Assembly (NCBI GenBank): GCA_024998595.1
Contig: JACOEK010000001.1
Coordinates: 248,001 to 312,000 of the forward strand
From: Nitrospira sp.
GTDB lineage: Bacteria; Nitrospirota; Nitrospiria; Nitrospirales; Nitrospiraceae
Length of the DNA stretch: 64,000 nucleotides
Direction of reading: 5' to 3'
This document shows positions 1 to 35,419 of this stretch, in pieces. Each line of letters starts with the position of its first letter. The first letter of the stretch is position 1. Below the pieces are notes generated by a model. That model made no database searches, was not told the DNA's origin, and saw only the letters and a program-made list of their open reading frames with translations. Position numbers and translations under genes: made by a program.

Positions 1-1209
1 CCACGCGCGCCCGTAGCTCAATTGGATAGAGCATCGGACTTCGGATCCGAGGGTTGGGGGTTCAAGTCCCTCCGGGCGCACCATATAATCAATAGGTTGC
101 ATCGTTTCTCGCTCTTCCCCCTCCGGTTTGGTCACGGTTTTGGTCACGGTTCCAGCCAGACTCCCTCGATTCACTGCGTCCCGAAGATGTCCTGGAGCAA
201 GGTGGGCATACCGGAGGGTCGTTTCAATATCGCGGTGTCCGAGAATCTCCTTCACCGACACGAGATCGACCCCTGCCATGACACGGCGGCTGGCTGCGGT
301 ATGCCGAAGTGAGTGCCAGCACGCCCCAGTGATCCCCGCTCGGCGCAGGCTAGGCTCAAACGCACGCCTAAGGAACGCCCGGCTGTCCATCGGGTGAGTC
401 ACGTCCTTTAAGCCTGGGAACACCCAAGCCGATCGAAGGAACGAGTCAAATGACCTCAGAATGGTCTTGGCTCCTTCGCTCAAGGGCACATGCCGGGTTT
501 TGCCGCCCTTCGGCATGGGGAGGGTCAGGACCTCGTTCTCCAAATCGACCTGGTTCCACCGGAGCGAAAACTGTTCTCCTCGTCTCAAGCCTGTCTCGAC
601 GGCGAAGGCCACCAATTTCCAGTCGTCCGGGGTCATCACGCCCCTCAATCGATCAAGTTCCTCACTGGTCAGGAATCGCGTCCGGTTGGCTTCCGGGAAG
701 AACTTGAGGCTGGACACCGGGTTCTTAGTGAGCTTGTCGTCTTTAACGGCTAACATGAGCACATGACGAAGGAAGGCAAAATGTCGGTTGATCGTGGCAT
801 CCGCCCACAGTCGTTGCGGGTCCTTCTTACTCACCTTCAGTTTGGCTCGCATTCTGGCTTGAATGCGCCGGAGATCGTCGACCGTAATCTGGGTGAGCAC
901 GCGATTCCCGATGAGCAGCGACCAGCGTCGCCCATAGAGCACTTCACCTGGCTTATTGCGGTTAACAGACCCTTCGAGGTAGCGATTGATCCAGGCCCGA
1001 AGCGTCACGTCCTTTCGAGGGGCGAATTTCTCGGGGAAAAATGTCCCTTCCCGAATGTCGGCCCGCAATCTGCCATACAGCGCTTTGGCCTGTGATTTTG
1101 TATCACACCGAAACCAGCGCTCCCGACCGTGGACATAGAGCCTCACCCACCAGCCTTCGCGGTTTTTGCGCTGGGTGATCCCCCTATCCTTTCCCGCTTT
1201 TCGTGCCAC
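1..1209 (-). CDS. int: Tyrosine-type integrase, frame open at the window edge
   Basis: This is a site-specific recombinase that would integrate and excise the element at tRNA-Arg. It starts at GTG 1209 with AGGAG seven bases upstream, overlapping the end of the preceding gene. The 403 codons seen include an N-terminal arm-binding region, a core-binding domain (about 67-160) and a catalytic domain (about 175-345). The catalytic set is present: R209 (GLRRGE), a hairpin Lys near 237, H299-x-x-R302, H325 and Y334. After residue 345 comes a Thr/Lys-rich tail (TVTKTVTK). From residue 376 the frame reads antisense through the whole tRNA gene and leaves the window without a stop. The true C-terminus is therefore unknown. 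Confidence 0.93.
   Translation of the reverse strand, partial: MARKAGKDRGITQRKNREGWWVRLYVHGRERWFRCDTKSQAKALYGRLRADIREGTFFPEKFAPRKDVTLRAWINRYLEGSVNRNKPGEVLYGRRWSLLIGNRVLTQITVDDLRRIQARMRAKLKVSKKDPQRLWADATINRHFAFLRHVLMLAVKDDKLTKNPVSSLKFFPEANRTRFLTSEELDRLRGVMTPDDWKLVAFAVETGLRRGEQFSLRWNQVDLENEVLTLPMPKGGKTRHVPLSEGAKTILRSFDSFLRSAWVFPGLKDVTHPMDSRAFLRRAFEPSLRRAGITGACWHSLRHTAASRRVMAGVDLVSVKEILGHRDIETTLRYAHLAPGHLRDAVNRGSLAGTVTKTVTKPEGEERETMQPIDYMVRPEGLEPPTLGSEVRCSIQLSYGRAW
7..83 (+). tRNA. tRNA-Arg (anticodon UCG)
   Basis: A full cloverleaf can be folded. The 7-bp acceptor stem pairs 7-13 with 73-79, and the discriminator A is at 80 with an encoded CCA at 81-83. The anticodon stem is 34-38 with 46-50, the loop is CTTCGGA, and the anticodon TCG is at 41-43. 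The T arm has the loop TTCAAGT. The 3' 45 bp are repeated at 9172-9216, which shows that this gene is the integration site of the adjacent element. The element end restores an intact tRNA here. Confidence 0.96.
39..83 (+). repeat. attL: 45-bp direct repeat, tRNA 3' end
   Basis: This is the exact 45-bp match to 9172-9216. It runs from the first base of the anticodon loop to the CCA end. The flanking bases differ (A38 versus C9171, T84 versus C9217), so 45 bp is the full identity. It lies inside the intact tRNA gene next to the integrase. Confidence 0.95.
130..151. repeat. Left-end decamer repeats (2 units)
   Basis: GGTCACGGTT occurs at 130-139 and 142-151, a 12-bp period, 47 bp inside attL. 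The same decamer recurs in the same orientation near the right end (9007-9051). On the minus strand the units encode the TVTKTVTK stretch of the integrase tail. They could be integrase arm-type binding sites, or simply coding repeats. Confidence 0.6.
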
Positions 1210-1849
1210 GGCGACGCTCCTTTTGTTGGTCGGCTTTGTGGCTCTCTCGCCATTTGCGAGTCGCGACTCGCGTCTGACAACGAGGCCCACAGTATCTTTG
1301 ATCGAAACGAATGGCCAAGTAAATCCGTTGGCACTCGGGGCAGCGACGGATGCGCCCGGCATAGTCCACCAACAGATGGGCAAACCGATATTCAAATTCT
1401 TTCACTTTCCGCTTCGTGGCGACAAACACACTCCCTTTGCGTTCGTCTTCGAGGGGTAACGTCACGATGATCGTGAATTGCGGGAACGTAAAGGCGGTGA
1501 CGGCGGTCTCCCAGAGCGTTTCAAGGCTGCCCAGGACCATCGCCTGGATCTCTTTGGCCTCTCCACGACTTGGCAGTGTGCCGCGAGCTCCCTCTCCTGG
1601 AATCGATCGGACGCTCCAGCCGGCCTCTGTCGCGATGTCCGCCCCACGGCGGTTGGCGACGTCATCGACAAAGCTGGCGATCTCAAACGCCAAGACCATC
1701 CATTCACTGGCCGTGAGGGTGTCCAGGTCAGTCTGAATAAACTTCAGGAGCCATCCCACCTCGCCATCTGCCGTGGCGAGAATCCTCTCTCTCGCCTTCT
1801 TCATCTCTCCGTGAAACTGGTCGTAGATTGCGGCTCGATCACCCGGCAT
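1184..1849 (-). CDS. Zinc-ribbon (CGNR-like) protein, 221 aa
   Basis: The function is unknown. The start ATG at 1849 is chosen because AAGGAG lies just upstream; longer upstream starts have no such site and would cross the divergent promoter region. The N-terminal two thirds is largely helical. The C-terminus has a four-cysteine cluster (C170-x2-C173 and C187-x3-C191) followed by a basic tail. This resembles the zinc finger of CGNR-type putative DNA-binding proteins, although the exact CGNR sequence is absent. The 3' end overlaps the integrase GTG by 26 bases, so the two are translationally coupled. A role in controlling integration is an inference from position. Confidence 0.75.
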   Translation of the reverse strand: MPGDRAAIYDQFHGEMKKARERILATADGEVGWLLKFIQTDLDTLTASEWMVLAFEIASFVDDVANRRGADIATEAGWSVRSIPGEGARGTLPSRGEAKEIQAMVLGSLETLWETAVTAFTFPQFTIIVTLPLEDERKGSVFVATKRKVKEFEYRFAHLLVDYAGRIRRCPECQRIYLAIRFDQRYCGPRCQTRVATRKWRESHKADQQKERRRGTKSGKG

Positions 1850-1990
1850 TGGGGGCTCCTTCTCATGATGAGTGGATGAGAATCTCACTCCATCGCAGTA
1901 CAGACGAAAAAAGTTGGGACCAACGGTAGATGTTGCGTGGAAATCGCTTGAAGAGTGTACCTCGGTAGTGGTAATGCGTGTCAAGATAGG

Positions 1991-2034
1991 ATATGCCTTT
2001 ATATCACTAGGCATATCAGTGCATATAACGCATA
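1991..2034. promoter_or_regulatory. Candidate operator with inverted and direct repeats
   Basis: A perfect 8-bp inverted repeat, ATATGCCT (1991-1998) and AGGCATAT (2009-2016), has a 10-bp spacer. GCATA half sites then follow at 2011, 2021 and 2030, about one helical turn apart. The cluster lies between the divergent zinc-ribbon/integrase and excisionase/Rep units, just upstream of the RBS at 2041-2046. This layout suits a regulator-binding site, perhaps autoregulation by the small HTH protein. No protein-DNA match is known to me. Confidence 0.5.
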
Positions 2035-2052
2035 ACCACAAAGGAGGTTCCC

Positions 2053-2262
2053 ATGGTCCCCAGTACAAAATTGATCACCATTCGAGAGGCCGCCGAACGG
2101 CTCGGCCTGAAGGAGAGCACGATCAGGAAATACATCCTGAAACGTCAGATTGCCTATGTGAAGCCGTCGGTGCGAGCCGTGCGGATTCCCATTGAGGAAT
2201 TGGAACGGATTCTGGCTGCCGGCCTCAGGCCTGCCATTCCTCAAGCGGAGGGGGCCCGATGA
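2053..2262 (+). CDS. Excisionase-like HTH protein (AlpA/MerR-type fold), 69 aa
   Basis: This is a small DNA-binding protein of the helix-turn-helix_17/excisionase kind. Residues 7-35 (ITIREAAERLGLKESTIRKY) form the typical helix-turn-helix, followed by the wing-like RAVRIPIEELERIL. AAGGAGG stands six bases before the ATG. It is divergent from the integrase and overlaps the next gene by four bases (ATGA). By family and position it probably acts as recombination directionality factor and/or repressor; that role is inferred. Confidence 0.85.
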   Translation: MVPSTKLITIREAAERLGLKESTIRKYILKRQIAYVKPSVRAVRIPIEELERILAAGLRPAIPQAEGAR

Positions 2263-2972
2263 GCCGCTGGAAGGAGTTCCGGCGGGAACCCGTCGCCGGG
2301 GAATGGACCAGGAAACAGAAACGGGGCTATCACCGGGTACGGTCGCTGCTCTGGTTCTGGGAATGTCACCAATTCCAAGTCCTCTGGGTCACCCTGTCCA
2401 CGGCAGAAGGCGGGCATGCCGAGAAGCTGACCTATCACCACAAGCAACTGCGCCAACGGATCGAGCGCCACCTGGGGTTTCAGGGCTTGGAGTATTACCA
2501 GGTCCGGACAGAAGAAGGGCATGGCGTGCTCCACATCTTCTGGGCCTGGCGGGTGCCGGATGGGGAACGCCCTCGGCGGTTCTGGATCTCCCAGGAATGG
2601 CTCTCCTCCCAGTGGCAAGCCCTGCACGGAGCTCCGGTGGTCTGGATCAAGGCCTATCAGCCCAGTCATCGTTCCCGGAACCGTCTCAGCCGCTACGTCA
2701 TCAGCCAATATGTTCAGGATCAATGCGGCTACGTGAACATGTGCTGGTCCTGGAAACGCTCCCTCGGCTTTCCCATAAGCCGACTGTGGGAAAAGATGCG
2801 GCATCAATGGTCCACCAGGAATGCTTATCGCCGGATCAGAGGTGAGATCGAAATCCCTAGGATCGTCTTCCTCAAGACCTGGGAGGATCTGCTCTCGGGG
2901 CATCCCATTTGGTTTAGCGGCACCATTCTGCAACTGGTGTTGGGGAAGGGGCTTGTCTATCAGGAGGTCTGA
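2259..2972 (+). CDS. Putative rolling-circle Rep-like protein, 237 aa
   Basis: It may be a replication initiator of the element. Residues 30-60 hold a strand-like hydrophobic segment (VLWVTLST), and 86-96 read EEGHGVLHIFW, in the place where HUH nucleases carry their metal-binding His-U-His. Only one His of that pair is clear, so the motif is degenerate. Residues 144-152 (SRYVISQYV) resemble the YxxxY-type active-site helix of such proteins. The start overlaps the previous stop (ATGA), so it is co-translated with the HTH protein. The alternative is a plain unknown protein. A GC-rich hairpin zone lies about 450 bp downstream. Confidence 0.5.
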   Translation: MSRWKEFRREPVAGEWTRKQKRGYHRVRSLLWFWECHQFQVLWVTLSTAEGGHAEKLTYHHKQLRQRIERHLGFQGLEYYQVRTEEGHGVLHIFWAWRVPDGERPRRFWISQEWLSSQWQALHGAPVVWIKAYQPSHRSRNRLSRYVISQYVQDQCGYVNMCWSWKRSLGFPISRLWEKMRHQWSTRNAYRRIRGEIEIPRIVFLKTWEDLLSGHPIWFSGTILQLVLGKGLVYQEV

Positions 2973-2974
2973 GG

Positions 2975-3217
2975 ATGATCTGGCATCGATGTAGTCTTAA
3001 ACTGCCAAGCCTGTTTGGACCGGCCTGTTGCGGACGGGAAGCGACCACTTACGACCGGGCACGGAAAGCCTGGCTCTGTCCTGAACATGCCAAGGAACGG
3101 CTCTGTGAGTTCTGCCAATTCGAACGAGCGTGGGTGCGGTTTTGTTATCGGGAGTATGACGTCACGTGCGAAATCTGGCTCTGTGTCGAGTGTGCGGGGC
3201 TGACAGGGCGACGGTGA
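2975..3217 (+). CDS. Small cysteine-rich protein, 80 aa
   Basis: The function is not recognised. It begins two bases after the previous stop, with AGGAGG at 2962-2967, so it belongs to the HTH-Rep operon. It holds several Cys pairs (CC near 18-19, C-x-E-H near 35, C-x2-C near 44-47, and C-x2-C near the end) with many aromatic and basic residues, which suggests one or two zinc-binding knuckles. Homologues of this sort often accompany Rep-like genes in small integrated elements, but that is recall, not proof. Confidence 0.65.
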   Translation: MIWHRCSLKLPSLFGPACCGREATTYDRARKAWLCPEHAKERLCEFCQFERAWVRFCYREYDVTCEIWLCVECAGLTGRR

Positions 3218-3687: not shown

Positions 3688-4497
3688 ATGATATCGAATC
3701 TGGAACGCTATAGGACGGACCTAGACTCTTTGCTGGCAAGTGGACACACGCTTACCTCGTCTCTCAACTATTATTGCTTCAAGCAAGATTTCGAAACAGT
3801 AGTCAAAAGACAATTAGGAGAAAATGCAGGAGCGTATCTGTCCTCGCTTCCCCAATTTCAGAAAGCGTATCAACCTTAGTATTCAGAGGCAAAGGTATTG
3901 ATAAGGCAACTATTGCCTGACCGACTTGATGATTTCATCCGGCACTACGAAAAACCAAAGTCGAGAAAGGAGATTACATATGAATCTTATCGGATCGAAG
4001 ATTGCCTCCTAGGAATCTCTGTCACCCGTGGCAGTGGTGGTCAAACAATAGTCACCCTTGACGGCGCAGTCCCACACCTTGAACAACAGATAGCTATATT
4101 GGAATCCGTTAAGAGCCGCTTTGAAAGCTCACTATTCGATATAAGGCAACTGGTACAAGCCGACCTCTTCGATTCGGAATTAGACGCGGCCAAAGAGTTG
4201 CTCCGGCAGAAATTCACGCGTGCGGCCGGGGCTTTGGCAGGAGTTGTACTGGAGAGGCATTTGTTGCAAGTCTGTGAGAATCACACTGTCAAAATAGGGA
4301 AGAAGAATCCCGGCATCTCTGACTTGAATGACCTCTTGAAGGAAGATAGTGTTGTTGCTGTTCCCGAGTGGCGGTTCATACAGCACCTTGGCGATCTCCG
4401 CAACCTTTGTGATCACAGCAAAAAGATAGAGCCATCAACACAACAAGTAGAAGATTTGATTGCTGGAGTCATGAAGATCGCAAAGACGGTATTCTGA
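3688..4497 (+). pseudogene. Conserved unknown protein interrupted by an in-frame amber codon
   Basis: One reading frame runs from ATG 3688 (or TTG 3685) to TGA 4497 but is broken by TAG at 3877-3879, after residue 63. The downstream part continues in the same frame. It could restart at TTG 3898, which has no good RBS, giving 199 aa. The sequence around the break (..FQKAYQP, stop, YSEAKVLIRQLLPDRL..) is smooth, so a single G-to-A change of a TGG Trp codon is a simple explanation. The C-terminal half is helical (KFTRAAGALAGVVLERHL, DLRNLCDH), similar to HEPN/abortive-infection-like C-termini; this is a weak resemblance. Codon use is AT-rich. It lies seven bases upstream of the next gene. Confidence 0.65.
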
Positions 4498-4504
4498 GCT
4501 TCCA

Positions 4505-5650
4505 ATGCAGAACTACATCTCTCAAACACATGAATTTGGGGTTGGTTGTTTCCACTTCGGCTTAAAGGACGGTATAGAGCAAGGGGTAAATAGTTCTGAA
4601 TACCTCAGTGCCGTCCGGGAACTCTTGGGTTCTTTCCCAGAAGTCGAAGACCTTCGCTGCTCTTATGAAAGTAGCCAGACACCAAAGAGTTTCCCGAATA
4701 CGCCTCACTGCAGCATAGAAGAAGGCGGTAGTCCCTATCCGTATTTACTGCTTCCGTCGGGCATACAGTTTCGCCTAAGGCTCACCCAAGATCGGCAAGC
4801 TAAAATATTTCCAATGTTGTCCCGCAGTAGAACTGGATGTGGTGCAGAAGCTTATCTAGTCACAATAAATTCTCCTTTTTATTATCCCGTCGCCTTCGTG
4901 GAATCACTAAAAGCTCCCGCTGGATGGCGACCATCGGCTGGCGTTGGAATAGTGAGAAATTACCTAAGAGACGCAGTGAATAAGAATGAATCCTCAAAAA
5001 TTAGGTTTGAATGTCTCGGTCCGAGTCCTTTCCATGCTGACTTCTATATACGGACCAGTTCAGATGTGGAAGCTGGGGCAGTTGAGCACGAGCGAGAAGC
5101 AAAAAAAGGTTATGACAGGTTCGTCTTTACCGTAAATCCTGTCTCGGTTGTTGAAGACGCTTCAATGGTGGCCGAATTGGTCTATCGAAATATACAGGAT
5201 GAGCTTTCCCTTTATTATGCGTGCAAGGCATTACAGATCTCTGTTTCGAGGGAATGGAAACAAATTCAAAAACTGGTCGATGAGGCTATTGGACAATATA
5301 CTGAGATTGGCCTAAAGGGATATTTGCACCGGCTGGCTCGTGCCCATAAACCGGCGCAGAAGGCTATAGTGGCCATCGTGAAACTTAAAAGCAGTGAAAT
5401 AGAAGCACAGATGAAACGGGACAGGATGTACGAATCAGTTTACAAGGTAAAGGCTATTGATTATCCTTTCGAGGCAATAAATAAAGACCTAGTTAATAAC
5501 AACCCTATATTCCCCACCATTCACGCTTATGACCTCTTGAAGATGTTTGGCGAAAATAGGATGAAGCATTTAGAAATCCTCGCTGTGACACTCTCAGCAC
5601 TTTTGGGTGGCGTTGTGGGTGCGTTACTAACCAAGTTTTTCGGCAATTGA
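4505..5650 (+). CDS. Unknown protein with a C-terminal membrane anchor, 381 aa
   Basis: No family is recognised. The body is soluble-looking, with mixed strands in residues 1-200 and helices from about 220 to 330. It ends in one hydrophobic segment (about 354-377, EILAVTLSALLGGVVGALL) followed by KFFGN, so it is probably a tail-anchored inner-membrane protein. It starts seven bases after the interrupted gene, with a weak RBS, which suggests translational coupling. In defence islands such a membrane-tailed partner often acts as the effector or anchor; here that is only an inference from context. Base composition is AT-rich like its neighbours. Confidence 0.75.
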   Translation: MQNYISQTHEFGVGCFHFGLKDGIEQGVNSSEYLSAVRELLGSFPEVEDLRCSYESSQTPKSFPNTPHCSIEEGGSPYPYLLLPSGIQFRLRLTQDRQAKIFPMLSRSRTGCGAEAYLVTINSPFYYPVAFVESLKAPAGWRPSAGVGIVRNYLRDAVNKNESSKIRFECLGPSPFHADFYIRTSSDVEAGAVEHEREAKKGYDRFVFTVNPVSVVEDASMVAELVYRNIQDELSLYYACKALQISVSREWKQIQKLVDEAIGQYTEIGLKGYLHRLARAHKPAQKAIVAIVKLKSSEIEAQMKRDRMYESVYKVKAIDYPFEAINKDLVNNNPIFPTIHAYDLLKMFGENRMKHLEILAVTLSALLGGVVGALLTKFFGN

Positions 5651-5814: not shown

Positions 5815-6891
5815 ATGCTCAACCGATCGCTTCTCGTTACCCTTGGATCGTTACGAAGACTCGACAAGAAGCTATTTGTCGCAGAGAATTTTCTTACAGC
5901 CGCCTTTGCATTCCTTCTTAAAAGCGATCGTGCTTTCCTCAAAGCCTACATAAAACGCTTAGGTTTTCGCCTACCCAAACTGCCTGAGGTCCAAGTACAA
6001 AAAAACTACATCGAATCGCCTCAAAATATTCCAGACATGGTGCTCTCCGATCATCACACATATATAGTTCAGGAAAATAAGATTGATTCTCCGTTAGGAC
6101 GTGATCAGCTTCGGAGGTATGCACTGCTAGTTAAGACTAGTGGAAAAAAATACAAATGTTTGGTTTACCTGAGAAGAAGGCACTCTAATTATTGGAAATC
6201 AAAACATTACATTGATGGTGTTCGGATCGTCCCGCTAACATGGGATTCTGTTGCGACTCTTATTAAAGTAACGGCAGCGGATCTATCACATGGTAAGTCG
6301 AAATGGCTGCGGCAAGAGGTTTGCGATTTCTTGGAGTTCTACGCGATGACCTACCCATCCCCATTGGATCTCGTGAAGCTAAGCCAGGCATGGAAAGATT
6401 TTGAATCCCAAGATGTCGCGCTTAGACGTGTGATCGAAGATGTACATCAAGCTCTTAAGAACAGTCTAAATGAGAAGCTCTACAGAGTACGCACTTCCCG
6501 TCCTGCGGAGTATCCTGGAATTTACATCTGCAAGAACCATGGACGACTAGGACAGACGATGAAATCTCAAGACTTGTGGGCATGGTGCGGGATCTATCCT
6601 TGGGAGGATGGAAAAGTATATGCCGGAATAGATATAGGCTGGGGACACAGATATGAGCAAAAAGTTCCTACATCATTTAGGAATCTTCTAGAAAGACGCC
6701 GGTTTGAGCACTATTCAGTTCCGGACGACCCTTCATTCCCATACGAAGGATATTCAATCGATAAGACTCTCAAATCGATAATCGGTCAATCAAAAATTTT
6801 TGAGGAACAATCTGCTAAAGCAATAGGCTGGTTTCTTCCTAAAGCCAAAGAGGTAGCTATGCTGTTAGATCACCTTGACCGAAAATGGTAA
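5815..6891 (+). CDS. PD-(D/E)XK nuclease family protein, 358 aa
   Basis: It is a likely metal-dependent nuclease. The N-terminal 120 residues hold the core: a helix with E24 (AENFLTAAFAFLL), then IPDMVL with D74, then IVQENKID with E87-x-K89, and then a QLRRYALLV helix, as in PDDEXK_4-type proteins. The remaining 230 residues are of unknown fold and include a Trp-rich stretch (WAWCGIYPWEDGKVYAGIDIGWG) that may sense a ligand or substrate. It stands alone, with 164 bp before and 181 bp after. No methylase is adjacent, so a classical restriction-modification role is unlikely. Confidence 0.75.
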   Translation: MLNRSLLVTLGSLRRLDKKLFVAENFLTAAFAFLLKSDRAFLKAYIKRLGFRLPKLPEVQVQKNYIESPQNIPDMVLSDHHTYIVQENKIDSPLGRDQLRRYALLVKTSGKKYKCLVYLRRRHSNYWKSKHYIDGVRIVPLTWDSVATLIKVTAADLSHGKSKWLRQEVCDFLEFYAMTYPSPLDLVKLSQAWKDFESQDVALRRVIEDVHQALKNSLNEKLYRVRTSRPAEYPGIYICKNHGRLGQTMKSQDLWAWCGIYPWEDGKVYAGIDIGWGHRYEQKVPTSFRNLLERRRFEHYSVPDDPSFPYEGYSIDKTLKSIIGQSKIFEEQSAKAIGWFLPKAKEVAMLLDHLDRKW

Positions 6892-7072: not shown

Positions 7073-8107
7073 ATGCCGCAGTTCACTACGATCTCGCCCA
7101 CTCACGTCCCTGGGAAAAAAGAGTACGCATGGCAAAAGTTTCTTTCCGGAGGTTATGTAGCAATCGGGTGGCTCGGGGATAAGGATCTCACTGGTAAGAA
7201 AATAGAGGAAGTCGAAGAACTTATTCGGAAAGAGGAGTATGAGAACGAGGCAAGTGCAATACAATCATATCGAAAGTTTCTGTCTCTTAAGGTAGGAGAC
7301 TACGTTGCAGTTAACAATGTAGGTTACGGCCTGTTCGGGGTCGGTCAGATTACCTCACCATATAAGTTCCAATTGCACAAGCACGATTCAGGGTCGGAGG
7401 ATGTGGAGGAGTTTTACTCCCATTATCGTGAAATTAAATGGCTTGTAAAAGAGTATCTACCTCGGACCTCGTTGGTTGCAGGAGGAGAAACAGCCTGGGC
7501 TCCTTATGGCACTGTAGGTGGGCTTTACCCAGAACTTCCGCCTTATATCGTGCGGATCGTGCATCCCGAGGCAGCACTACAAACAGAGAAAATCAAATAT
7601 ATCCGCCCTGACTTCCTTGCATCCGTCATCAACGACATAGAAACACTGCGTCCAGATGTAAGGCACCAGGAGCGAGCTCACGAATCACTCGCGGAGGATT
7701 TTTTTGTCGCTCTAGGTTATCAGAAGCATAAGGATATAAAGTTCCGCCAAGGTCGGATAGACATTACTTTAGAGCATGCAGGTCAGCCGATAGCCGTTAT
7801 TGAGGTGAAACGAGATTGGGCTTTCAACATGAACGTTGTGAGACAACAAGCCTACGTCTATGCTCATAGCATCGGAGTTCGGTATGTCGTCTTAACTAAT
7901 GGGGAAACCTATATCCTCTACGACCGATTAAAAGGGCTCTCATGGGATTCAAATCTTCTCGGGGAATTTCGTCTAACCGCCCTGCAGGATGAGGACCTAA
8001 AACTTATCGACCGTTTGCGGCCAAAAGCTTTTGGTAATCCTGACCTTCATGAACTTTTTCGCCATTTATCAGAGATGTTTGCTCAACAACGTAGCGAATT
8101 AGTGTGA
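7073..8107 (+). CDS. Putative base-reader domain fused to a PD-(D/E)XK nuclease, 344 aa
   Basis: Two modules can be seen. Residues about 15-165 contain WQKFLSGGYVAIGW...DLTG...SYRKFLSLKVGDYVAVNNVGYGLFGVGQI. This is the pattern of EVE/PUA-like or Mrr_N-type modules, which read modified or flipped bases. Residues about 195-310 hold a nuclease core like the N-terminus of type I HsdR: a helix with ESLAEDFF, GRIDITLE with D230, and IAVIEVKR with E244-x-K246, then a QAYVYAHS helix. GTAGGAGG stands upstream of the ATG. Known fusions of this kind act as type IV, modification-dependent restriction enzymes; this role is inferred here. Confidence 0.7.
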   Translation: MPQFTTISPTHVPGKKEYAWQKFLSGGYVAIGWLGDKDLTGKKIEEVEELIRKEEYENEASAIQSYRKFLSLKVGDYVAVNNVGYGLFGVGQITSPYKFQLHKHDSGSEDVEEFYSHYREIKWLVKEYLPRTSLVAGGETAWAPYGTVGGLYPELPPYIVRIVHPEAALQTEKIKYIRPDFLASVINDIETLRPDVRHQERAHESLAEDFFVALGYQKHKDIKFRQGRIDITLEHAGQPIAVIEVKRDWAFNMNVVRQQAYVYAHSIGVRYVVLTNGETYILYDRLKGLSWDSNLLGEFRLTALQDEDLKLIDRLRPKAFGNPDLHELFRHLSEMFAQQRSELV

Positions 8108-8185: not shown

Positions 8186-8824
8186 ATGAGCTGGCTGGAA
8201 TCGCAAATTAAGATCGATACCTGCCGTCGATGCGAAGAAGCCTCGGTCCCCTATGTGCAGGTGCCACCAAATAACAAGCGGCACCCAACATATTTTCCAC
8301 CCGTACCGACTCGGATCCTTTTCGTCAGCGTGGCTCCGCCCTGGGGCGGTGATTACTTTTGGGATGAGACTAAGCCTGATAGGGTGCGGGAAGGTCTCTT
8401 TGAGGCTTTGTTACGCGCGACTGGCAAAACACTTGATTCAGTGATGGCGTTTCATTCTGCCGGTTACTTTCTTGTGCCTGGCGTTAAATGTCCATCGCGG
8501 GTCGGGAATAAGGATCACCTTCCTCACGTGAAAGCGATTGCCAACTGTACACGTCATCTAGGATCTGAGATGCAAATCGCGCGGCCTAGGAGAATCCTAG
8601 CGTTGGGGATGCCAGCCATGAAGGCCGTTGCTCTAACTTGCGGTTTGAAGATCCCATCGAGGGTTGAGGAGATCTGTAGGAGTCTTTGGTGGACAAAGCT
8701 AGATGAATACTTGGTCCCGGTCCTTGGAACGTATTTCCCAGGGAACAAAAGGCATCAAGGGTTTGACAGAATTCCTGAATCAATCAATGCGCTTCTCGCG
8801 CTAGAGCCCAAGCAATTTGAATAA
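8186..8824 (+). CDS. Uracil-DNA-glycosylase-superfamily protein with FeS-type cysteines, 212 aa
   Basis: The layout is that of family-4/5 UDGs. Cysteines are at 13 and 16 (CRRC), 102 and 121, a spacing suited to a [4Fe-4S] cluster. RILFVSVAPPWGG at 43-55 occupies the place of the GxAPG active-site loop. ARPRRILALGMPAMKAV is the typical central strand and helix, and GTYFPGNKRH (about 180-190) sits where the HP[S/A] loop occurs. Both active-site loops differ from canonical uracil excision enzymes, so the substrate may be another base, or the protein may only bind. It is the last cargo gene before attR. Confidence 0.65.
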   Translation: MSWLESQIKIDTCRRCEEASVPYVQVPPNNKRHPTYFPPVPTRILFVSVAPPWGGDYFWDETKPDRVREGLFEALLRATGKTLDSVMAFHSAGYFLVPGVKCPSRVGNKDHLPHVKAIANCTRHLGSEMQIARPRRILALGMPAMKAVALTCGLKIPSRVEEICRSLWWTKLDEYLVPVLGTYFPGNKRHQGFDRIPESINALLALEPKQFE

Positions 8825-9171
8825 AGTTTGTTCCTGATGATCGTCAACTTTGCTGGCATTTTATACGACGATCTCAGAGGGGGAAGAGTTTGAGGAAGTA
8901 GCCTCTCTACCGAGTTTCAGAGCAAACTGAGCGTCAAACAGATATAGACCGGAGAACCTTAGCGTTTTTCAACCCCAAAACTGTCTCGCGTTCTTGAGAA
9001 CATTTTGGTCCCGGTTTTGGTCACGGTTCGGTCACGGTTTTGGCCACGATTGCAGGTATGTCTCCATCGCCACTCATCCCCATCCATTGATGGTGAAGTC
9101 ATTGTTCTACAAAGAAAAAATATCCATCTGTCCTCCTTGATCGCTGTCAATCTCTATGTCACTTTGTGAGC
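8825..9171. other. Right end of the element, no gene seen
   Basis: There are 347 bp between the last cargo gene and attR. Apart from the decamer repeats at 9007-9051 I see no feature. A 63-codon minus-strand frame (8959-9150) exists but includes the repeats. Its DRTVTKTGTK stretch mimics the integrase tail, so it may be a relic of an older integrase 3' end. Confidence 0.5.
9007..9051. repeat. Right-end decamer repeats (4 units)
   Basis: There are four direct units, GGTCCCGGTT (9007), GGTCACGGTT (9019), GGTCACGGTT (9030) and GGCCACGATT (9042), with an 11-12 bp period. The middle two match the left-end decamer exactly and have the same orientation. The array lies about 120 bp inside attR. Confidence 0.65.
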
Positions 9172-9216
9172 CTTCGGATCCGAGGGTTGGGGGTTCAAGT
9201 CCCTCCGGGCGCACCA
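9172..9216 (+). repeat. attR: truncated tRNA-Arg 3' copy
   Basis: This is the second copy of the 45-bp repeat. It contains only the anticodon loop, 3' anticodon strand, variable and T arms, and acceptor 3' strand with CCA. No D arm or 5' acceptor strand precedes it, so it is not a functional tRNA. It marks the distal end of the integrated element. Confidence 0.95.
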
Positions 9217-34627: not shown

Positions 34628-35332
34628 CTAAGCCGACGGGGACAAGCGACGATTCCCGAGCCGTCGTACAGCTTCGGAAAAGATACGGTGGAACATGGGT
34701 CTGGTCAGTTTGCCGGTAAACGTATTCTGCTGACTGGGATGATACGAGCCGATCAGGGAGACCCCCCAAGGTAACTCATACGTTACGCCATGACCGAATT
34801 TGGGAAGGGGCGTGGGGAGATCGCGCCCCATTTCACGACACGCTTTGAGATAGTGATCAAACGCAATCTTGCCCAAGACGACGACCACTTGCACCTTCTT
34901 CAGTAGGCGCAGTTCACCCAGCACAAACGGCCGACAAGCTGTGAACTCATCCGGCGTGGGTTTGTTCGCCGGCGGAGCGCATCGCACGGTTGCGCCGATA
35001 TAGCAGTCCATCAGAACGAGGCCGTCATCGACATTCGTAGACATGGCCTGGTTGGCAAACCCGAACCGATGCAAGGCCTCATACAGCCAATCTCCGCTAC
35101 GGTCTCCCGTAAACACTCTCCCCGTCCGGTTTCCTCCATGCGCGGCCGGCGCCAAGCCCAGGACGTACATCCGGGCTTGTGGATCGCCAAATCCCGGAAT
35201 CGGCTTTCCCCAGTAACGCCACTCTCGGTACTGCCGCCGTTTCGTGGCCGCAATGGACTCTCGGTAACTGACGAGTCGAGGGCACTGCGTGCAGGCAATG
35301 ATTTCATCGTTGAGTATCGACAGTGTCGCCAT
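34628..35332 (-). CDS. Uracil-DNA glycosylase, family 5 (UdgB) type, 234 aa
   Basis: It removes uracil and deaminated bases from DNA. It has ACTQCPRLVSYRE with the first FeS cysteine pair, VLGLAPAAHGGNRTGRVFTGDRSGDWL (the family-5 active-site loop with A instead of the Asp/Asn), CAPPANKPTPDE and GSYHPSQQNTFTGKL. The start is uncertain: ATG 35332 has no clear RBS and an in-frame start at 35392 exists. It is convergent with transaldolase and divergent from the transglycosylase gene. Confidence 0.9.
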   Translation of the reverse strand: MATLSILNDEIIACTQCPRLVSYRESIAATKRRQYREWRYWGKPIPGFGDPQARMYVLGLAPAAHGGNRTGRVFTGDRSGDWLYEALHRFGFANQAMSTNVDDGLVLMDCYIGATVRCAPPANKPTPDEFTACRPFVLGELRLLKKVQVVVVLGKIAFDHYLKACREMGRDLPTPLPKFGHGVTYELPWGVSLIGSYHPSQQNTFTGKLTRPMFHRIFSEAVRRLGNRRLSPSA

Positions 35333-35419
35333 AATCGTGGAGTGTATCAAACCGACGAGTTTCTTGTCCCGCAAGGAGCTTGTTGATAGCATGGGTCTTT
35401 AAGCGTGTGATGAAAGGAT

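Follow-up and report, generated by a model that had tools for sequence, protein, structure and literature searches.

P0001, encoded in a 64,000-nucleotide stretch of Nitrospira DNA (hereafter the window), is a UDG-fold protein with altered loops. The likeness to UDGs is real and beyond chance, and its gene closes the cargo of a mobile element of 9,133 bp that is integrated in a tRNA-Arg gene. To judge from alignments, the pocket of P0001 has lost the three residues with which family-4 UDGs handle uracil, and the changed pocket is held under selection. We tentatively favour a role in defence, in which P0001 would act on a modified base.

Fold, cysteines and pocket residues of P0001

P0001 belongs to the UDG superfamily. 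It matches the Pfam UDG model PF03167 with 26.8 bits (cut-off 24.3; 6.3e-6), and its predicted fold matches UDG structures. The NCBIfam family-4 model reaches only 21.5 bits, its cut-off being 250. Profile–profile comparison of six close homologues with 15 family-4 UDGs of the phylum gave a probability of 97.2% (E 3.9e-11 for this single comparison). Sequence searches of the PDB returned family-4 and UdgX rows; rows for CENP-T, beta-arrestin, a halogenase and a transferase were set aside as chance matches.

An earlier note on this DNA had proposed superposing a structure model on family-4 and family-5 UDGs. The predicted fold of P0001, modelled from four sequences (pLDDT 75, pTM 0.80), matches the family-4 UDGs 4zbx and 4zby with Z 16.3 and 3.1–3.3 Å over 185–187 residues (3.1 Å over 185 residues for 4zbx), and UdgX structures with Z 14.9–15.9. 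Foldseek TM-scores of the model against 4zby are moderate (0.59/0.64). Values of pLDDT below 50 were obtained for residues 10–31, which include the CxxC, for residues 53–56 in the motif-A loop and for most of 103–110, so that the model does not establish the geometry of cluster and pocket. In the fold searches, a stretch of phage family-A DNA polymerases (phiLo 9qhs, SP-15 and others) also matched the UDG-fold model.

Cys-13, Cys-16, Cys-102 and Cys-121 had been said to fit the iron–sulphur pattern, and they do align with the four Fe–S cysteines of family 4. Going by these cysteines, the scaffold of P0001 is probably [4Fe-4S]-bearing.

The same note held that the loops at residues 50–55 and at about 180 differ from the canonical ones, and the joint alignment agrees. 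Residues 48–55 (motif A) read SVAPPWGG in P0001 and GEAPG in family 4; residues 181–191 read GTYFPGNKRHQ where family 4 has HPx. Val-49 replaces the motif-A Glu, and the motif-B His has become Phe-184 (TYFPGN). The third altered position is that of the Asn in TNAV, which is Pro-98 in P0001. Neither this Asn-to-Pro change nor the status of the gene as mobile-element cargo beside nuclease genes was mentioned earlier. Phe-58 is aligned with the aromatic residue of the family-4 PFVG segment, which stacks on the base. According to the accessible text of PMC10359453, the Glu of UdgX and family 4 activates the attacking His or water, while Asn and His hydrogen-bond the uracil.

The family-4 rows of the alignment were chosen for their GEAPG content, and their Glu therefore holds by construction. 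The other two positions were not selected for: Asn is found in 13 of the 15 family-4 rows (Asp in the remaining two), and the motif-B His in all 15. As to whether the loops might be normal for a known repair UDG clade, a check that the earlier note had suggested, the exact P0001 loops occur in none of the 17 aligned family-4, family-5 and UdgX rows and are conserved within their own clade. Position by position, the missing motif-B His is the one difference that P0001 shows from every one of the 17 rows.

Each of the six core homologues has Val-49, Pro-98 and Phe-184, with identities of 41–67% in all pairs. The invariant residues, 57 across the six proteins, further comprise GG-x-YFWDE (54–61), D65, R68, K101-C102-P103-S104, T182-Y183-F184 and R189. 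Such an invariant set suggests a working pocket rather than decay. For the window gene and the copy in genome G042, the one pair for which purifying selection was demonstrated, dN/dS is 0.195. Nine other homologue pairs were analysed; dS was saturated in eight, and the ninth (L026/L027) has a dS of 4.7 and a ratio of 0.07.

The genome contains six UDG-superfamily genes as found by a PF03167 search, among which P0001 is the weakest match. On our reading of the translations, motifs assign the other five to family 4 (GEAPG/HPAA), a UdgX-like protein (GEQPG, RRH loop), family 5, a MUG/TDG-like protein (GINPG) and Ung (GQDPY/HPSPLS). With these five further genes a sixth repair enzyme is unnecessary, and the earlier statement that ordinary uracil repair is covered can be kept. 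The chromosomal family-5 UDG on which that statement was based exists in the window, its ORF being placed at 34628–35332 in the earlier note and ending at 35392 in our analysis (Table 1). What had been overlooked is that this family-5 protein itself lacks the Glu and Asn: it has Leu at the motif-A Glu and Ala at the Asn position, and it retains the His.

The motifs that define family 4, family 5 and UdgX are all missing from P0001. With family 4, represented by 4zby from Sulfolobus tokodaii, it shares the fold over nearly the whole protein and four cysteines in the Fe–S columns; in contrast, the GEAPG Glu, the TNAV Asn and the motif-B His of family 4 are replaced by V49, P98 and F184, and APP followed by WGG stands in place of APG. 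For UdgX (family 7), motifs were compared with L064, the UdgX-like protein encoded in this genome. P0001 matches the fold of UdgX structures, but it has no KRRIH-type R-loop, no GEQPG and no motif-B His. The window family-5 protein resembles P0001 in the four cysteines, the acid-free motif A and the missing Asn at the TNAV position; it differs in the loop after motif A and in the retained motif-B His (SYHPS), which places P0001 outside family 5.

The clade and its occurrence

A maximum-likelihood tree of 31 rows has a split, supported at 100/98, with the core homologues and eight wider cousins on one side and families 4 and 5 and UdgX on the other. Support for the core group is 97/96. Long branches lead to G009, family 5, G091 and UdgX, and the joins among those are uncertain. 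Among the cousins, the residues at the three swapped positions vary. Three of them (G090, G076 and G149) have SEAPP, with Asn changed to Ser and His to Leu, and also lack two of the four cysteines.

Core homologues (E <1e-30) were found in nine of 235 genomes of the order, the window genome included. The reading frame is open in G000, G015, G042, G380 and G364 (the last two being loci L026 and L027), whereas it is split across two contigs in G083 and contains in-frame stops in three of the nine (G025, G020 and G402). One more core member, G107, lies outside the order; as assembled, this homologue lacks the N-terminal CxxC, and it is located near a contig end. Four homologues (L015, L016, L019 and L026) are found about 500 bp or less downstream of a chromosomal gene that we read as uvrA-like, and two of these copies, L016 and L019, are broken.

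We also searched plasmids, phages and further contigs. Nothing was returned by tblastn with P0001 against plasmids and phages (1e-3), with the L026 homologue against plasmids (0.1) or with two cousins against plasmids (0.01). Peptide-pattern scans, which need exact short peptides, found no match in viral contigs and, when based on P0001 alone, none in genome contigs. With alignment A2, the scan of genome contigs yielded four loci only, all from Nitrospira/Nitrospirae. The genome searches were centred in Nitrospirota, and statements on occurrence apply to those collections.

The tRNA-Arg element and its relatives

The position of the P0001 gene within its element is given in Table 1. An empty site was found in four of six relatives examined (G015, G012, G005 and G024), where the flanks and an intact tRNA-Arg gene adjoin and the element is absent. 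In G018, only the 45-bp copy precedes the right flank, and the stretch examined in G025 has no tRNA. Across 73% of its length, the Rep-like protein is 25.5% identical to the Rep of Thermotoga miniplasmids (1e-5). The 294-residue protein is common to 11 of the other element copies listed. The Mrr-like gene, encoded on the same strand, stops 78 bp ahead of P0001. Repeats of the GGTTTTGGTCACGGTT type, present near both ends of the window element, also occur in pairs in L095, L097 and L113; they are perhaps arm sites of the integrase.

Table 1. Features of the window in the region of the tRNA-Arg element, and the family-5 UDG gene.
Feature	Position	Strand	Remarks
Tyrosine integrase	1..1395	-	PHROG phrog_1 1.9e-64; overlaps the tRNA; open at the window edge
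tRNA-Arg (tcg), integration target	7..83	+	
Attachment-site copy in tRNA 3' half	39..83	+	45 bp
Inner repeat near left end, GGTTTTGGTCACGGTT type	124..155	+	matched at 9001-9055
294-aa protein	1184..2068	-	Cys-rich, zinc-ribbon-like stretch near C-terminus (by reading)
Rep-like protein, element backbone	2259..2972	+	237 aa
Backbone protein	2975..3217	+	80 aa; adjoins Rep
Cargo, 199-aa protein	3898..4497	+	
Cargo, 381-aa protein	4505..5650	+	
Cargo, PD-(D/E)XK nuclease-like	5815..6891	+	PDDEXK_4 5.9e-5; partial PADLOC PDC-S26
Cargo, C-terminal HSDR_N/Mrr-like nuclease domain	7073..8107	+	5.7e-7; partial PADLOC PDC-S02
P0001, UDG-fold protein	8186..8824	+	ATG start, 212 aa
Inner repeats near right end	9001..9055	+	
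Second attachment-site copy, right end of element	9172..9216	+	45 bp, no mismatch
Family-5 UDG	34628..35392	-	motifs GLAPA / SYHPS

Among 80 related genomes, 26 have a match to the Rep gene, that of the window included; identity is often about 97%, and up to six full-length copies occur in one genome (G015). We examined 20 Rep copies taken from the top-scoring matches. In 13 of these, the element is bounded by directly repeated tRNA 3' ends (Arg, Cys or Gln) and measures 8,437–10,682 bp; all 13 match both integrase and Rep. The other seven have no such tRNA-end repeat; among them, L097 and L113 have other direct repeats about 5.6–5.9 kb apart, so the size of the element is not strictly fixed. 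The cargo differs among the 13 bounded copies, save for two shared sets (L099/L105 and L100/L102/L107/L108), which have a kinase pair in common. Elements of this kind, with integrase and Rep, variable cargo and a fixed layout, are possibly plasmid- or satellite-like inhabitants of Nitrospira.

A copy of P0001 with 68% identity is found in another genus (G042, locus L014). Again it is the last gene before a repeat of a tRNA end, here 12 bp of tRNA-Asn, with the repeat copies 8.3 kb apart. The other cargo of this locus differs from that of the window, as does the gene upstream of the P0001 homologue, and no match to the window integrase was found in it. The 12-bp repeat is weak by its length, but it is favoured because it corresponds exactly to the tRNA 3' end. 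The G042 locus is thus probably a second mobile element. A shared Rep was rejected as proof that window and G042 carry one and the same element, since Rep is common in the genus.

PADLOC gave no match for P0001. For the sister copies, 20 larger ORFs (15 from copies with a found end, five from copies without) were searched at E 1e-5; nine of the cargo proteins matched and 11 did not. As four of ten chromosomal control proteins also matched, a uvrA-like one among them, only full-length matches were counted. These are a Upx candidate in the cargo of L106 (2.6e-151; Rep +1330 to +5049, oriented) and PDC-S06 in L098 (7.5e-63). Partial matches to an OLD/AriA-like ATPase (L104), an AbiLi-like protein (L099), a RelA/SpoT-domain protein (L095) and PDC-M41A (L112) are suggestive. 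One shared cargo gene encodes a histidine kinase, which is not a defence protein. At least some elements of the family carry defence genes, though defence is not their exclusive cargo; in view of the controls, the full-length matches that back a defence label for the surroundings are few. A strong GmrSD match in L113 was left out as cargo: this GmrSD-type restriction gene (Rep +3707 to +5590) lies just past the repeat which seems to end the element.

The Mrr-like neighbour of P0001 was matched in one of 29 genomes of the genus, that of the window, and no relatives were found in plasmids or viral contigs. We considered whether its N-terminus could be an EVE-like modified-base reader; the single-sequence model has a pLDDT of 34, and a search of the accessible text of the EVE paper found no mention of glycosylases or Mrr. 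Across the loci compared, no conserved partner gene for P0001 was seen.

Candidate functions of P0001

The earlier suggestion that P0001 has a new base target or acts as a sensor points in a fair direction as judged from the residues described above. A literature search covering titles and abstract openings returned no description of the P0001 clade, and three UDG-related phage-defence glycosylases, Brig1–3. According to the accessible parts of the published descriptions, Brig1 removes alpha-glucosyl-5hmC, Brig3 removes 5hmC, and Brig2 acts against phages with modified thymines. Brig1 and Brig3 are described there as UDG-superfamily enzymes from accessory defence loci with changed pockets, the residues reported being Y121 and E147 for Brig1 and N50, E55, W100, D127 and N225 for Brig3. 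The best structural match reported for Brig1 is the S. tokodaii family-4 UDG, as for P0001. UDG-domain proteins have already been named among predicted defence systems (PMC13092281, accessible part). We compared P0001 with the Brig proteins by these descriptions only: in the window it lies among mobile and nuclease genes, a type of location that is not shared by the four uvrA-linked loci. The literature search also listed the restriction glycosylases (PMC10273834), which are separate from the UDG-related Brig1–3.

The reading that we prefer, with chances slightly short of even, is that P0001 is a defence glycosylase working like Brig1–3 on a modified base. A family-4-like scaffold would have been rebuilt, the uracil set having gone from the pocket (Glu to Val-49, Asn to Pro-98, His to Phe-184). 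P0001 would rotate a modified base, probably one of phage DNA, out of the helix and cut it off; the abasic sites left behind would stop phage replication. Candidates for an acid replacing the motif-A Glu would be the conserved D60, E61 or D65. Its gene travels as the end cargo of the Rep/integrase element in the tRNA gene, and nuclease genes adjoin it.

Patchy presence (9/235 genomes), location as mobile cargo, the nuclease neighbours and the Brig precedents argue for this defence reading. So do the fold match to 4zbx and 4zby, the three swaps with the invariant residues that accompany them, the dN/dS of the G042 pair, the five further UDG-superfamily genes and the end position of the gene in the probable second element. 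Several points argue against it. P0001 may cleave nothing, and it has no PADLOC match. The Mrr-like neighbour is restricted to one of the 29 genus genomes, and four loci lie by the uvrA-like gene, outside elements. The G042 element is bounded by 12 bp only and lacks a match to the window integrase, and the G107 homologue is without the CxxC as assembled. Furthermore, the family-5 UDG is also without Glu and Asn; a repair enzyme can therefore accommodate two of the three swaps, which makes the defence reading slightly less and a repair function slightly more likely.

The main rival, which we regard as unlikely though serious, is a catalytically dead reader. Such a protein would bind tightly to an abasic site, to uracil or to a modified base; in doing so it would mark the DNA or block it, and it may assist the adjoining nuclease as a sensor. 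This would accord with the loss of all three family-4 catalytic and recognition residues, including the water-activating Glu, and with the Mrr-like nuclease gene so close upstream on the same strand. There are precedents in the accessible literature, as UdgX is a UDG scaffold turned covalent binder (PMC10359453) and inactive family-4 paralogues have been reported (PMC5295032). However, P0001 is without the UdgX R-loop, and the conserved D60, E61 and D65 could supply catalysis. A helper role is also at odds with the lack of a conserved partner: G042 has a different gene upstream, and no match to the Mrr-like gene was found in the 28 other genomes of the genus.

We give distinctly less credit to an ordinary repair glycosylase for another endogenous lesion, such as deaminated or oxidized bases, that came onto the element by chance. 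The uvrA-linked copies would then be the original chromosomal repair gene, and the four loci just downstream of the uvrA-like gene (L015, L016, L019 and L026) fit this explanation, but they fit defence equally well. The window family-5 protein, likewise without motif-A Glu and Asn, is a further point in its favour; according to PMC5295032, the substrates of family-5 UDGs include damaged bases besides uracil. A gene found in nine of 235 genomes and broken in three of the nine, two of them uvrA-linked, is nevertheless unlike a housekeeping repair gene, and the location on mobile elements (one sure, one probable) speaks against repair as well. A drifting leftover without function would agree with the three broken or frameshifted copies (G025, G020 and G402), but is highly improbable given the intact window ORF, the 57 invariant residues of the six homologues and the dN/dS of 0.195 for the G042 pair.

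Beyond P0001 itself, it is possible, although doubtful, that the clade represents a new ‘APP’ family of the UDG superfamily, confined to Nitrospirota in the collections searched. The family-4 uracil set would have been replaced and then frozen in this family, and sister clades would have changed the same positions otherwise, for example by retaining the Glu and taking up Ser for Asn and Leu for His. Its members would be base-specific defence glycosylases or readers directed against modified phage DNA, moved partly by tRNA-integrated Rep elements among nitrite oxidisers. With the cysteine scaffold of family 4 retained and every family-4 uracil contact swapped, such a clade would show how a repair fold can be retargeted. 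It could also hint at modified bases in phages of nitrite-oxidising bacteria, the DNA chemistry of which seems little studied.

Two observations concern the neighbours of glycosylase genes. Glycosylase-adjacent proteins of L026 (6529–7047) and L017 (301–1209) have an RFIF-[YL]-WIA-x-NA stretch in common, which looks HEPN-like by eye, without a Pfam match of this kind. The SEAPP-type cousin glycosylases have a common Sel1-repeat neighbour (L021, 17129–18118; L022, 7970–9049), which is 63% identical between the loci.
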